IMG/VR virus record: IMGVR_UViG_3300021960_008509
Location: 1 to 52,689 of that record
From: a virus
Length of the DNA stretch: 52,689 nucleotides
Direction: 5' to 3' (one strand)
Shown here: positions 11,513-19,598 of the stretch, piece after piece
Position numbering within the stretch: position 1 is the stretch's first letter
Layout: every line of letters begins with the position of its first letter
Program-made: the position numbers and the translations under genes
The notes under the pieces: generated by a model
Database searches by the model: none
The model's input: the letters and a program-made list of their open reading frames with translations, nothing else
What the model was told of the DNA's origin: nothing

Positions 11513-12327
11513 GTAAAAATTTAATATATCAATGTTGGGAAGGTACCCCTAGACCATCTGCACATTACGGTAGTGATGTTATGAAATCATATGCTGAACG
11601 CATCGGTGCAGACTACGAGTTCGATATTAACTCTGGATTCATTAAACGTTTTCGTGGTATGGGCCCTGAGAGAAGATATTACGGTACACTTAAACCAATC
11701 TATGAAGATAGGTTTTTAGAATATGATAAAGTAATGTATGTGGATACTGATATTTTTCCAGTCGAAGGATTAAAAGAAAATATTTTCGATACCTTTAATC
11801 AAGACATAGGAATGTGTACAGAACCTACTATGCCAGATATCCGCGCTAAACGCGCAGATGAAATGCTTTGGCATCGAATGTTGAAAAACAAATACAATAC
11901 CGAATGTGCTAAAAGAGAAGACGGTAAGTACCTTGTTTACAATGCGGGTCTTGTAATGTGGAGCAATCAGGGATTGAAACATTCTCGCAGTAAATGGGGT
12001 TCGGTTTCTAATTATGTTTTCGATGTTAAGCATGCAGGTATTACTAAAGAGATTTACAAAACAGATCAGAACTACATTCATGCTATGGTATTTTCTTCTA
12101 ATATGTCATTACAATCATTAGACAATGAATGGAATAGATATATCACATGGAACAATTGGAGATTGCCAGATCGTAAAGTTATTGATCCGAGAACCCCAAA
12201 CACTAAATTTGTACATGTGCAAATGCGCGGAGCAGATGATCTGGACAATGACACTCATTGGCGAGTGGTAAACAAACCGGTGTCTGAATGGGGCATTGAT
12301 AAGTGGGGGAAACCTTTCGAATGTTAA
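11509..12327 (+). CDS. GT-A glycosyltransferase (LIYQ paralogue family)
   Basis: The 272-residue protein has the family opening NLIYQCWEG, a clear DxD metal motif in KVMYVDTDIFPVEG near residue 78, a YNAGLVMWSNQG segment and TKFVHVQMRGADD near the end. These fit a GT8-like retaining or inverting enzyme with a GT-A fold. It starts four bases inside the 10826 gene and its end overlaps the sulfotransferase by seven bases, so it belongs to one transcript. Confidence 0.72.
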   Translation: MSKNLIYQCWEGTPRPSAHYGSDVMKSYAERIGADYEFDINSGFIKRFRGMGPERRYYGTLKPIYEDRFLEYDKVMYVDTDIFPVEGLKENIFDTFNQDIGMCTEPTMPDIRAKRADEMLWHRMLKNKYNTECAKREDGKYLVYNAGLVMWSNQGLKHSRSKWGSVSNYVFDVKHAGITKEIYKTDQNYIHAMVFSSNMSLQSLDNEWNRYITWNNWRLPDRKVIDPRTPNTKFVHVQMRGADDLDNDTHWRVVNKPVSEWGIDKWGKPFEC

Positions 12328-12854
12328 GTAAAAAACTAATAGTCATAGGTTTGTCTCGTACTGGTACGACTACTATACACCAATATTTAAGGTCTAGACA
12401 TTTAGTTTCTCTTCATTATCCATCCAAAGCACAGTTATATGATAATAGATACGATTCTATTTCAGACCTTCCTGCTTCACTCTACTTTAAAGATCTAGAT
12501 AAGTATTGGAAGAAACGTTGTAATTTTTTATATCTTACTAGACCAATTGAAGATTGGGTAGAATCTGTCCTTTGGAAATTTGGTGATAAACCGATTCCTC
12601 CAGATCCGTTTCATCGAGAACTTAGAGAGAGAGCGTATGGTTCTCAGCTTCCAACCCGCGAAGCATTCATAGATGCGTACCATAAACACGAAGAACAGGT
12701 GTTTAAGTATTTTAAGGATCGTCCGAAGGATCTACTTACCATGAGTTTATTTACAGATGATCAAACTAAATCTTTAAATACATTGTGTGAATTTATAGGA
12801 ATAAAAAATAACGGCATACCCTTTCCGCATGCTAATAAAAGGAAACAAAAATGA
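12321..12854 (+). CDS. P-loop sulfotransferase
   Basis: I choose ATG 12321, giving 177 residues that start MLSKKLIVIG; a GTG at 12303 is the longer option. The 5'-phosphosulfate loop is GLSRTGTTTI at residues 10-19 and the 3'-phosphate segment is LYLTRPIEDWVES near 66. The tail, IPFPHANKRK, is typical of small bacterial sulfotransferases of this group. The family moves a sulfuryl group from PAPS to a hydroxyl, often on a sugar. Sitting two genes after the SQD1-like enzyme, it supports a sulfur-bearing glycan. Confidence 0.78.
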   Translation: MLSKKLIVIGLSRTGTTTIHQYLRSRHLVSLHYPSKAQLYDNRYDSISDLPASLYFKDLDKYWKKRCNFLYLTRPIEDWVESVLWKFGDKPIPPDPFHRELRERAYGSQLPTREAFIDAYHKHEEQVFKYFKDRPKDLLTMSLFTDDQTKSLNTLCEFIGIKNNGIPFPHANKRKQK

Positions 12855-16328: not shown

Positions 16329-17025
16329 ACACGAACCAACCGATCTGGGTTACACTGACATGATCGCACACACTACGGAAGATGGACGTACTTACGAACA
16401 TCCGGTTGAGCGTAAGTCGTACCCTTCTATCACTACGGTACTTTCTATTTTAAGTGAGGCCTCGATTGCCAAATGGAGAAAGAGCGTAGGAGAAGAGGTT
16501 GCCAACCAAATTTCCTCTCGTGCATCTCGAAGAGGTACTTCAGTGCATGAGTGTATCGAGAGGTATATTAATAATGAATCTCTTGCAGATCTTCGAAAAG
16601 CATATACTCCGGATATCATGGCAAGTCTCAAATCTATTCGAGGTGTTCTCGACGAAAGAATAGGAAAAGTTTATGGACAAGAACTACCGCTTTATTCGGA
16701 TCATTTATCTGTTGCTGGGCGCGTTGATTGTGTTGCTGAGTTTGACGGAAAAATATCGATTATTGATTTCAAAACCAGCAGAAAGTATAAAAAACGAGAA
16801 TGGATTACCAATTACTTTGCCCAAGAAGCCGCATATGCGATTATGTGGGAAGAACGAACCGGAGTGCCAATTACCCAACTCGTTACCATAATCGCAGTTG
16901 ATGAGATGACGTTCAACGGACCTCCAGGTCATCAAGTCTATATTGAACACAGAGATAATTGGACCACAAAACTTAAGGAAACGATCTGTGAATATAATAA
17001 AAGAGCGCACCCGAGATTTGCATGA
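16318..17025 (+). CDS. PD-(D/E)XK exonuclease (Cas4/MGME1-like)
   Basis: The start at ATG 16318 (MNFKHEPTDLG) is preferred over upstream in-frame starts because those fall deep inside the previous gene. The 235-residue protein shows the nuclease motifs in order: GTSVHECIE near residue 74, AGRVDCVAEF near 137, IIDFKTSRK near 152 and FAQEAAYAIMWEE near 170. The D, DFK and Q residues fit a metal-dependent single-strand exonuclease of the RecB/Cas4 type, probably for phage recombination or DNA turnover. It overlaps heme oxygenase by 38 bases. Confidence 0.8.
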   Translation: MNFKHEPTDLGYTDMIAHTTEDGRTYEHPVERKSYPSITTVLSILSEASIAKWRKSVGEEVANQISSRASRRGTSVHECIERYINNESLADLRKAYTPDIMASLKSIRGVLDERIGKVYGQELPLYSDHLSVAGRVDCVAEFDGKISIIDFKTSRKYKKREWITNYFAQEAAYAIMWEERTGVPITQLVTIIAVDEMTFNGPPGHQVYIEHRDNWTTKLKETICEYNKRAHPRFA

Positions 17026-17533
17026 AGATCTTGAACGTTTACCTTTCAATCAAAAAATGTTTCGAAGTGAACAAACTATACCAGAACGTATTGGTTATTT
17101 ACTGGGACTACAGTCTATTTTTGTGTGCTTGGATCAGTACGTACCTACTGAGTTAAGACGTTATGATAACATTAAAAATGACATTGCCAAACTTAAAGAA
17201 ATGTCTGGAATGACAGGAGATGCGGTTTCTCAATTACTTCCGTGGGCTTCAATTGGTTACTGTACCTATCTGGATTATATTACCGATGATATAGAACCTC
17301 ACGTCTACCTAAATTATATGGGTCTGATGTTTGGTGGTCAGATTATGAAAAAGAGATACCCCCAGTATCCAATGTCTGTATATGATTTTGATGACGATTT
17401 ATCCAAACTTAAATTGTGGATTAGAGAAGAAGTTTGTGAAGAAAATGACAAATTTATTGATGAAGTTAAGATGGGGTTTAAGTGGAATATGGCAATGATG
17501 GAAGAACTTGGGAATGAGCATGGTGTGGAATGA
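16988..17533 (+). CDS. ho: Heme oxygenase
   Basis: I choose GTG 16988 because AAGGAAA lies about eight bases upstream; a TTG at 16943 would give 15 more residues. The 181-residue product shows the heme oxygenase pattern: IKERTRDLHEDLE with the likely proximal heme ligand H12, a GYLLGLQSIF helix near 36, and MGLMFGGQIMKK near 111-122, equivalent to the distal SGGQxxKK helix. The enzyme opens heme to biliverdin, CO and iron, using electrons from ferredoxin. It is shorter than cyanobacterial HO1 (about 240). It overlaps the bilin reductase gene, a direct sign that biliverdin is passed on. Confidence 0.85.
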   Translation: MNIIKERTRDLHEDLERLPFNQKMFRSEQTIPERIGYLLGLQSIFVCLDQYVPTELRRYDNIKNDIAKLKEMSGMTGDAVSQLLPWASIGYCTYLDYITDDIEPHVYLNYMGLMFGGQIMKKRYPQYPMSVYDFDDDLSKLKLWIREEVCEENDKFIDEVKMGFKWNMAMMEELGNEHGVE

Positions 17534-18188
17534 GTTTATTGATTTCAGCGAATATGCTAAGATTATGATGGAGGGGCACTGTGGTAAGCCTACCCTGACG
17601 ATCAATGGTCCACACACGGACATACGATACACATCGAAAAAGACCGACCTCGCGAATATATCCATCATTGACTGTCGCGAGACAAAGAAGATGTGGATGA
17701 TGCATGTGGCATGTTTCTCAAAAGACGATTATCCCATGCCCATATACGGGTTTGATATCATTTGTGGTAAGAACAAAGTCACCGGATGTTTTCATGACAT
17801 GTCACCAGTCTCCAAAAACTACTCCCAAGCATTCAAAGATTTTATCACCAATGTGACTCCCTATATTCCTAAACGAACCAGAGAACTACCACCATGGGCA
17901 AAGGAAATATTCTCTGATCATATGGTAGTCGCAGGAGCAACCGATGACATTCAAGAGATCAAAAACCTCGTACACATGGGAAAAGAAAATCTTCATGCGT
18001 GGTTCAAAGAACTTGACACTCTGATGAACACTACGGTTGATTGGGTGCACCTTAAAAACTACAAAGAGAACCGCACTAAGTACTGTAAGAACCAGTTGGA
18101 AAATACCAACTCGAAAAATGTTATGATATCACTAGGGTTAGCGGAAGATTATGTCAACAAATTCAAAAAACAACAGTTCCCTTATTAG
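17514..18188 (+). CDS. pcyX: Ferredoxin-dependent bilin reductase (PcyA/PcyX-like)
   Basis: ATG 17514 is taken as start; TTG 17508 and ATG 17520 are alternatives. The 224-residue protein matches the bilin reductase core: MMHVACFSKDDYPMPIYGFDIICG followed by FHDMSPV. The histidine H64 and aspartate D81 are 17 apart, the same spacing as the catalytic His88 and Asp105 of PcyA, while ungapped counting gives no Glu at the PcyA Glu76 position. That pattern fits the viral four-electron reductases (PcyX/PebS) that make phycoerythrobilin from biliverdin. It overlaps heme oxygenase by 20 bases. The PcyX subgroup is an inference; membership in the bilin reductase family is well supported. Confidence 0.85.
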   Translation: MSMVWNEFIDFSEYAKIMMEGHCGKPTLTINGPHTDIRYTSKKTDLANISIIDCRETKKMWMMHVACFSKDDYPMPIYGFDIICGKNKVTGCFHDMSPVSKNYSQAFKDFITNVTPYIPKRTRELPPWAKEIFSDHMVVAGATDDIQEIKNLVHMGKENLHAWFKELDTLMNTTVDWVHLKNYKENRTKYCKNQLENTNSKNVMISLGLAEDYVNKFKKQQFPY

Positions 18189-18199
18189 GATTTAATAAA

Positions 18200-18445
18200 A
18201 TGGATATCAACGATTTCGGATTCACAGCGGTGAATGAAGACGAACTAGAAGTAGTACAAACTGCCAAGGAACAAGCATCTAACACACTTGAATTGCACGA
18301 TAGATTACATGCATTATACAATGCCGTTCAACCTCTACTAACTAATCTCAAAGCAAATCCCGAGAAAGATTATATCTATTGGCCTAACAGAATGACCAAG
18401 GTCGAAGAGTTCTCCGACATGCTCGATAAGATATATCGCGGATGA
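18200..18445 (+). CDS. Conserved T4-like phage protein (81 aa)
   Basis: The protein starts MDINDFGFTAVNEDEL and continues with a helical segment and NLKANPEKDYIYWPNRMTKVEEF near residues 50-72. Small proteins with this pattern are frequent in T4-like marine phages, and I know of no assigned function. Its stop overlaps the DUF454 gene by four bases (ATGA). It probably belongs to the same transcript as heme oxygenase and bilin reductase. Confidence 0.65.
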   Translation: MDINDFGFTAVNEDELEVVQTAKEQASNTLELHDRLHALYNAVQPLLTNLKANPEKDYIYWPNRMTKVEEFSDMLDKIYRG

Positions 18446-18840
18446 AAAAAGCAATGTGGTACTCACTCGGTATGATATCTCTTGCTCTCGCATATATTGG
18501 ATTTGTCACACCCGGTATACCATTCTCAATATTTCTTGTATTCTCTGCATACTGTTTCTCTAAGTCATCAAAACGTATGCATGACTATCTGTATAATCAC
18601 AAACATTTCGGACCATTTCTCACAAATTTCATAGAGAAAAGAATATTTCCAACCAAAGCAAAATATGCCATGGTCACAGTCATGTCATCCTCTCTACTCT
18701 TTCTATGGTTCACAACGTATAATCTCATCGCATTGCTATGGTCAACAGGATTCATGGCAATGGTTGCAGTATATTGCTGGACACAATATCCTGGTTCTGA
18801 AGAAGAATATCAAAAGAGAAAACACAAAAACGTTTCATAA
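18442..18840 (+). CDS. DUF454 (YbaN-like) inner membrane protein
   Basis: The 132-residue protein has the DUF454 pattern: LALAYIGFVTPGIPFSIFLVFSAY across the first two membrane segments, CFSKSSKRMHDYLYNHKHFGPFL between them and the next, and two more hydrophobic segments near residues 75-112. The family sits in the bacterial inner membrane and its function is unknown. A phage copy beside heme oxygenase and bilin reductase is unusual. The start overlaps the previous stop (ATGA). Confidence 0.8.
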   Translation: MKKAMWYSLGMISLALAYIGFVTPGIPFSIFLVFSAYCFSKSSKRMHDYLYNHKHFGPFLTNFIEKRIFPTKAKYAMVTVMSSSLLFLWFTTYNLIALLWSTGFMAMVAVYCWTQYPGSEEEYQKRKHKNVS

Positions 18841-18872: not shown

Positions 18873-19598
18873 ATGCTTAAGAAACATTTTATACACATAC
18901 CTAAAAATGGTGGAATGACTATCGTCAAGGAACCCACCATTTCTCAGTATATTATTAGAAGTACTTCTAAGCACATGAAAGATTCCATATATGTAAATGA
19001 AGTGAAGACTATGATGACTTCGCAGAAAGAACCTTCATATGGATGGAATCATGCTCGATGGAGAGACCTACACCCCATGGTTCAAAGTGCACGACCACAC
19101 TTTGCTATTCTTCGTAATCCTTGGACACGTGCAGTGTCACGATGGAAGTTTGTGAACGATCAGTTTGACATTAACCATGGTAAGAATAATATGATGAATA
19201 ATCATACAACTTATCGAAGTATGTCCTTTAATGAATGGTTAGAAGAAAGACATGTTTATGGGAGTCTGCCTTATTATTGGCATCGGGCAGGTAGGGGGTG
19301 GTCTCTACAGAAAGATTATGTCACCTCGGAAGAAGGAGAGGTCATGGTCGATTGTATGAGGCTTGAACATCTCAACGAAGACTTACCCAAGTATTTAAAA
19401 ATCGAAATGAACCGTATCAAACGTAGTAATGTGACCAACAAAGAAAGGATTGACTATCGTTCTTTTTACACTCCCCGAACTCGAAAAATTATTGAAGATT
19501 GGTATGGAGAAGACATTGAATTCTTTGGATTTTCCTTTGATGGACCCGCAACGAAGAATATCTGGAATATAACGTATTCCAGATATTCATGTAAATAA
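18873..19598 (+). CDS. Sulfotransferase (Gal/HS-sulfotransferase-like)
   Basis: The 241-residue protein has the 5'-phosphosulfate loop FIHIPKNGGMTI at residues 6-17 and the 3'-phosphate motif FAILRNPWTRAVSRWKF near 78. The tail motif IDYRSFYTPRTRKII...YGEDIEFFGF is typical of this carbohydrate sulfotransferase family. It would move sulfate from PAPS to a sugar. It is unlike the sulfotransferase at 12321 in sequence, so the two probably have different targets. A 14-bp perfect inverted repeat covers its last codons. Confidence 0.8.
   Translation: MLKKHFIHIPKNGGMTIVKEPTISQYIIRSTSKHMKDSIYVNEVKTMMTSQKEPSYGWNHARWRDLHPMVQSARPHFAILRNPWTRAVSRWKFVNDQFDINHGKNNMMNNHTTYRSMSFNEWLEERHVYGSLPYYWHRAGRGWSLQKDYVTSEEGEVMVDCMRLEHLNEDLPKYLKIEMNRIKRSNVTNKERIDYRSFYTPRTRKIIEDWYGEDIEFFGFSFDGPATKNIWNITYSRYSCK
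19556..19588 (+). repeat. Perfect 14-bp inverted repeat at gene end
   Basis: GAATATCTGGAATA (19556-19569) and TATTCCAGATATTC (19575-19588) are exact complements around a 5-base loop, TAACG. The stem overlaps the last codons of the sulfotransferase, whose stop is at 19596-19598. There is no T run after it, so it is not a standard terminator. It may protect the mRNA 3' end, act in factor-dependent termination, or be a protein-binding palindrome just upstream of the promoter at 19602. Confidence 0.6.

Follow-up and report, generated by a model that had tools for sequence, protein, structure and literature searches.

Genomic Location and Identity of the Gene Pair

Two overlapping genes for a heme oxygenase (HO) and a ferredoxin-dependent bilin reductase (FDBR) were found in the window (the whole stretch of DNA that was analysed, 52,689 nucleotides), with a gene for a small membrane protein downstream of them:

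16988..17533, plus strand: heme oxygenase (HO), 181 aa, GTG start; identified by PF01126, AlphaFold (AF2) model and Foldseek
17514..18188, plus strand: ferredoxin-dependent bilin reductase (FDBR), 224 aa; identified by PF05996, PcyX structure 5owg, AF2 model and clade position
18442..18840, plus strand: small membrane protein of the DUF454/YbaN family; identified by PF04304 (E = 1.2e-25)

The HO reading frame has an alternative opening at TTG 16943; the starts of its relatives match GTG 16988, and an AAGGA sequence is located about 8 nt 5' of this codon. The 5' end of the HO gene overlaps an exonuclease gene (stop at 17025), and its 3' end overlaps the FDBR gene by 14–20 nt, depending on whether the FDBR starts at ATG 17514 (which gives 224 aa) or at ATG 17520; its stop is at 18188.

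The HO protein matched PF01126 with an E-value of 3.4e-6 (27.4 bits, compared with the curated Pfam cut-off of 23), and its AF2 model had a pLDDT of 95.2. Foldseek comparison with the PDB returned the human, rat, and C. diphtheriae (HmuO) heme oxygenases with TMq values of ~0.8. In both family profile and fold, this protein agrees with HO-1/HmuO-type enzymes. Only two annotated phage HOs were returned when it was used in a viral-fold search. A tblastn search for the HO in a phage collection gave zero matches, the HO of phage Mosig being too distant.

The FDBR protein matched PF05996 with an E-value of 1.4e-13 (51.5 bits; Pfam cut-off 31) and belongs to the phage "ferredoxin oxidoreductase" family of PHROGs. 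Among PDB sequences its best phmmer match was PcyX (5owg, E = 5e-28). The AF2 model had a pLDDT of 91.5, and Foldseek matched it to PcyA, PcyX, PebA, and PebB with a probability of 1.00. The profile match above the cut-off and the fold place this protein inside the bilin reductases, contrary to the placement that would have refuted the first-pass annotation. The first-pass annotation of this DNA had described the locus as an HO gene overlapping a bilin reductase gene, and both identities as well as the overlap were confirmed here.

Purifying selection was observed on both genes, with dN/dS values of 0.07–0.09 for FDBR and 0.09–0.13 for HO in pairs with sufficient, unsaturated divergence; several other HO/FDBR pairs were saturated or had very few changes, and for one pair of very closely related FDBRs the value was 1.7.

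Active Site and Phylogeny of the Bilin Reductase

Three codons of the FDBR gene are relevant to its classification:

17661..17663, plus strand: Ser50 (position of PcyX Asp55 and PcyA Glu76); Ser in 19/19 clade members
17703..17705, plus strand: catalytic His64; invariant in 70/70 phage FDBRs
17754..17756, plus strand: catalytic Asp81; invariant in 70/70 phage FDBRs

Numbered from ATG 17514, His64 and Asp81 are separated by 17 residues, which equals the spacing of His88 and Asp105 in PcyA. Thus, the catalytic pair recognized in the first reading is present at the PcyA spacing, and the PcyA-specific Glu is indeed missing, with Ser50 in its place. The window FDBR resembles PcyA, which is among its best Foldseek matches, in having equivalents of His88 and Asp105, but it does not have the complete Glu76-His88-Asp105 triad. 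It was also placed outside both the alphaproteobacterial PcyA proteins and the cyanobacterial type, which is represented in the tree by cyanophage sequences only. Of the other 51 phage FDBR rows, 28 have Asp, 11 have Lys, and 9 have Glu at the Asp55/Glu76 position, and the few others have different residues; Asp55 was located in the 5owg alignment by its distance before the catalytic His, on the assumption that the chain numbering includes an 8-residue tag.

In a phylogenetic tree of 66 rows, the window protein was found in a clade of 17 sequences which has a support of 100/100 and whose branch is 1.35 changes per site long, and an earlier quick tree recovered the same clade. This clade nests in a larger phage group which also contains the Asp55 PcyX proteins (including that of Mosig), one Lys-type clade, and, at a greater distance, one Glu-type clade. 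Additional residues specific to the window clade are H34, L195, and Q221. Ser50 was rejected as the sole marker of this clade: contig L027 also has Ser, yet its FDBR is located near the Asp55 PcyX proteins and is accompanied by a canonical HO, indicating that Ser arose at least twice.

Two other phage FDBR clades were observed with different residues at the Asp55 position. One of them (L028–L041 and L128–L131) has Lys; in the metagenome-assembled genome (MAG) G007, which contains Lys-type cassettes, three HOs read GELHGG, in which Asp140 is replaced by Glu. The other clade (L094–L123) has Glu and possibly represents the PcyA type of phage CB_2.

The missing Glu had been taken in the first-pass annotation as a sign of the viral four-electron type. 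This assignment did not hold, because characterised PcyX has Asp55, which has been termed a PcyX-specific catalytic residue (PMC11480375), at the position of Ser50, and the window FDBR belongs to a separate clade; it is therefore not established as a four-electron PcyX-type enzyme. With regard to the phylogeny suggested at that stage, the protein does fall inside the phage group that holds PcyX, but it is found neither among the Asp55 PcyX proteins nor with PcyA. Pre-PcyAs, whose products are different ones (PMC10151467), are also among the enzymes without the Glu; the FDBR sequence therefore does not reveal the product, and structure–function relations of FDBRs are considered not reliably predictable (PMC13193486).

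One explanation, to which we assign slightly less than even odds, is that the locus is an ordinary PcyX phycoerythrobilin synthase cassette that differs by sequence drift only. PcyX is the nearest solved structure by sequence, the gene order matches that of the Mosig hemO-pcyX pair, and the window FDBR is inside the phage lineage containing PcyX. In addition, PcyX Asp55 reportedly stands for the PcyA Glu and is said to be dispensable itself for catalysis. On the other hand, the fully supported separate clade with its long branch, the fixed Ser50 together with H34, L195, and Q221, and the different pocket of the partner HO argue for a distinct branch of HO-FDBR cassettes.

Altered Distal Pocket of the Heme Oxygenase

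The pocket of the partner HO was analyzed using its distal helix motif:

17300..17341, plus strand: HO distal helix motif, HVYLNYMGLMFGGQ; identified by motif alignment and residue counts

Positions were mapped to human HO-1, whose residue numbering we take to be established, through the shared H-x-Y-x-x-x-x-G-x-x-x-G-G motif. Based on this alignment, HVYLNYMGLMFGGQ keeps His132, Tyr134, Gly139, Gly143, and Gly144 of human HO-1. In the human enzyme, Tyr58, Arg136, and Asp140 form the distal hydrogen-bond network required for oxygen activation, and according to textbooks it is the Asp140 network on the distal side that makes heme oxygenase an oxygenase and not a peroxidase. All three residues are absent from the window HO, where F45, N109, and L113 replace Tyr58, Arg136, and Asp140, respectively. 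Hence the protein does not have the hydrogen-bond network of the HO-1/HmuO type, and this observation counts against the explanation that we favor below, in which the enzyme makes biliverdin.

The same alteration was observed in all window-type HOs compared (n = 23): the Tyr58 position is Phe in 21 and Met in 2, the Arg136 position is always Asn (23/23), and the Asp140 position is Phe (9), Met (7), Leu (6), or Val (1). The canonical phage HOs (n = 44) have Tyr in 44, Arg in 43, and Asp in 44 at these positions. In the HO tree, the altered type formed one clade (22 rows, support 100), corresponding to a single change. Other parts of the active site are conserved. The proximal His12 and Glu16 are invariant in all 67 phage HOs (23 window-type and 44 canonical), and so are the GxxxGG glycines G112, G116, and G117 in the phage HOs compared. 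The 23 window-type proteins also keep Tyr107 and R146 (equivalent to Arg183), and the distal His (His105) is present in 22 of them. Judging from these alignments, the residues for heme ligation and seating are retained in the remodelled HO clade.

Replacement of the distal residues has different consequences in known enzymes. In human HO-1, Asp140Ala turns the enzyme into a peroxidase (PMC5623701) and Asp140His strongly decreases its activity (PMC7948506). However, plant HO-1 is naturally without the Arg and Asp and is functional via a different network (PMC7948506), so that loss of the network alone is not proof of inactivity. The plant protein GmHO-1 (PMC7948506) resembles the window HO in the absence of both equivalents of Arg136 and Asp140; it uses Ala and His there, whereas the window clade has Asn and a hydrophobic residue, and the motif of the window clade otherwise resembles that of bacterial and mammalian HOs, unlike GmHO-1. 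In view of the purifying selection on it and of its pairing with Glu-bearing FDBRs (see below), the remodelled HO is probably active.

We also searched 399 genomes of one phylum, which gave six HO matches: three from a MAG with cassette-type phage contigs and three from cellular genes, the latter retaining both Arg and Asp. A cellular origin of the remodelled HO was set aside, as none of the six matches in these 399 genomes is of the remodelled type.

Genomic Context and Possible Host

The window contains T4-type structural and replication genes, including those for gp32, the DNA end protector, the baseplate hub and wedge, the tail tube and tail cap, and PhoH, which marks this ocean phage as a T4-like myovirus and agrees with the T4-like phage named in the first reading. 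Genes for ThyX and sulfotransferases, along with sugar-related genes, are also present, and tRNA genes were not found in the window. The two sulfotransferase-family genes (12303–12854 and 18873–19598) are located amid many glycosyltransferases and methyltransferases, and a Nol-like carbamoyltransferase is encoded at 825–2396, a gene that Phage C48C1 has too. Phage C48C1 is the closest named genome; its record is without a host and has no annotated photosynthesis gene in 1–100 kb. For gp32 and ThyX, the closest phage records are the Methylophilales phages Melnitz.

The initial observation that nothing else in the window is photosynthetic was supported, since neither the window nor any of 19 related contigs matched the Photo_RC profile. 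Similarly, neither psbA/photosynthetic reaction-centre protein nor plant-type ferredoxin was found in the window and 12 other altered-HO contigs, one of which is a 152.7-kb relative. AlaS (TIGR01821) was also not found in these contigs, most of which are fragments. The detection of AlaS in 4/7 canonical-HO contigs shows that the AlaS search works; however, because the contigs are mostly fragments, the absence of ferredoxin, reaction-centre protein, and AlaS is weak evidence.

A second explanation, which is possible but in our view somewhat doubtful, is that the cassette serves to free iron and CO from the heme of the host, while the FDBR clears biliverdin and the bilin has no role of its own. 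The absence of a photosynthesis gene, plant-type ferredoxin, and AlaS described above would fit this explanation, and iron supply, as well as a phytochrome role, both of which had been raised in the first reading, have already been discussed for phage bilin cassettes (PMC11480375). However, a dedicated reductase that is kept under purifying selection suggests that the reduced bilin matters, and biliverdin could simply diffuse away.

Pairing and Evolution of the Cassette

To describe the distribution of the cassette, we used searches of viral contigs that were seeded with family sequence patterns and in which the best 80 of 541 were kept, so the counts describe that sample. When the HO profile alone was used, an FDBR gene adjoined the HO gene in 80/80 of these best matches among the 541 confirmed phage contigs, indicating that the pairing is not due to chance. 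Comparison of the window (16988–18185) with contig L002 (5463–6660) revealed that the FDBRs are 89% identical and the HOs only 41%, so the two genes differ in their histories, suggesting that the HO has been exchanged or is evolving faster.

The HO adjoining a Ser-type FDBR of the window clade always belongs to the altered clade. Altered HOs also pair with FDBRs of another clade that bear Glu at the PcyA position (L047, L064, L069, and L077). Such Glu-bearing FDBRs would need biliverdin, and the altered HO beside them therefore most likely makes biliverdin. By sequence, these four FDBRs are also candidates for a new subtype. Additional HemO-FDBR contigs (L125–L131), phage-like by sequence, were found binned to MAGs of Halobacteroidaceae, Neomarinimicrobiota, Rickettsiales, Rhodobacteraceae, and Bacteroidetes.

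It is improbable that the HO-like protein is a heme-binding chaperone, sink, or peroxidase and that the FDBR uses host biliverdin. Such a role would be in line with the loss of Tyr58, Arg136, and Asp140 in 23/23 members and with the fact that single Asp140 mutations impair or convert human HO-1 (PMC5623701, PMC7948506). Nevertheless, HOs of the altered clade occur beside several types of FDBR, each of them dependent on biliverdin, their dN/dS is low, and the conserved Asn109 and Tyr110 suggest a pocket that has been rebuilt rather than decayed.

HemO-FDBR cassettes have been published for marine phages, and the window pair itself is thus of an already known kind. A hemO-pcyX pair is known in several of them, including the pelagiphage Mosig EXVC030M (PMC11480375, citing Ledermann 2016/2018), and phage CB_2 has hemO, a true PcyA, and alaS (PMC11480375). 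The vHemO of CB_2 yields biliverdin IXalpha, and marine phage PcyX yields phycoerythrobilin (PMC11480375). Similar to the window pair, the Mosig genes are found in a T4-like phage, overlap in the order hemO to FDBR, and encode the FDBR fold with the His-Asp pair, and photosynthesis genes were noted neither for Mosig nor for the marine metagenomic hemO-pcyX cassettes. In contrast, the FDBRs of the window and Mosig are 33% identical, belong to different clades, and differ in Ser50 versus Asp55; the two HOs are ~20% identical, and that of the window lacks Tyr58, Arg136, and Asp140 and has DUF454 downstream of its cassette. The hemO-pcyA/X-alaS cassettes of CB_2 and others (PMC11480375) also have hemO adjoining the FDBR gene and occur in aquatic phages, but in the window alaS was not found and the FDBR is without the Glu of the Glu-type phage group. 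The window pair belongs to a separate, apparently undescribed branch of the hemO-FDBR cassettes.

DUF454 Neighbor

The third gene of the locus is separated from the FDBR gene by an 81-aa ORF (18200–18445) in the window. In 14 of 20 deduplicated altered-HO cassettes, a DUF454 gene is located downstream of the FDBR gene and usually overlaps its end; the remaining six lack it, and it was found in none of the canonical cassettes. Besides the window, this neighbor was noted in contigs L002, L004, L007, L010, L014, L021, L047–L049, L056, L058, L060, L061, and L174. The DUF454-cassette link is real within the altered-HO clade. A three-gene unit, in which the membrane protein encoded by the DUF454 gene serves as an anchor for the pathway or handles bilin export or docking, is unlikely and, as a bilin-transport unit, unproven, because 59 other DUF454 genes of viral contigs (L176–L234; mostly 52–58% identical) have no HO or FDBR gene within the ~3 kb examined, none of the 76 genomes examined from the class around G007 has a DUF454 gene adjacent to an HO gene, and six altered-HO cassettes are without DUF454.

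Proposed Function and Significance

Considering the evidence above, the explanation that we favor, with a probability of roughly 0.7, is that the two genes are an auxiliary-metabolism module of the phage, representing a distinct hemO-FDBR branch, which converts heme to biliverdin and then to a reduced bilin. The families, folds, clades, residue replacements, pairing, and purifying selection come from the computations, and we infer both activities, the electron donor, the product, and the use as follows. HO His12 would ligate host heme, seated in its usual orientation, and the heme would be opened to biliverdin IXalpha, CO, and Fe2+ at the expense of electrons supplied by a reductase or by host ferredoxin. 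Because this HO is without Tyr58, Arg136, and Asp140, proton delivery must take another route, for which Asn109, Tyr110, Tyr91, and the Asn/His at the Asn210 position are candidates. The FDBR would then reduce biliverdin via His64 and Asp81 with host ferredoxin. Instead of harvesting light, the pathway may serve the release of heme iron and CO, or supply some host protein with a bilin ligand.

As to the product, phycoerythrobilin (the PcyX-like outcome) is tentatively the single most likely one, although it falls a little short of an even chance. Dihydrobiliverdin or phytochromobilin together come next and should be considered possible. Phycocyanobilin is the least likely and would be quite surprising, because the PcyA Glu is absent. 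A further and rather unlikely scenario is that this phage HO subfamily activates oxygen without Tyr58, Arg136, and Asp140 by a different proton route and, together with an acid-less FDBR, gives a bilin or isomer which is unpredicted by the known FDBR classes and has a non-photosynthetic use.

Beyond the initial reading of this DNA, our analysis revealed a separate FDBR/HO branch and a partner HO without the catalytic distal network. An HO clade that is conserved and apparently constrained, lacks all three residues, and is still paired with FDBRs is a natural experiment on oxygen activation, and an FDBR clade in which the PcyA Glu and the PcyX Asp are both missing puts the product choice of FDBRs to the test. 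Both proteins are small and assayable by published methods. The finding also broadens the question of why bilins are made by phages whose hosts are apparently non-photosynthetic.
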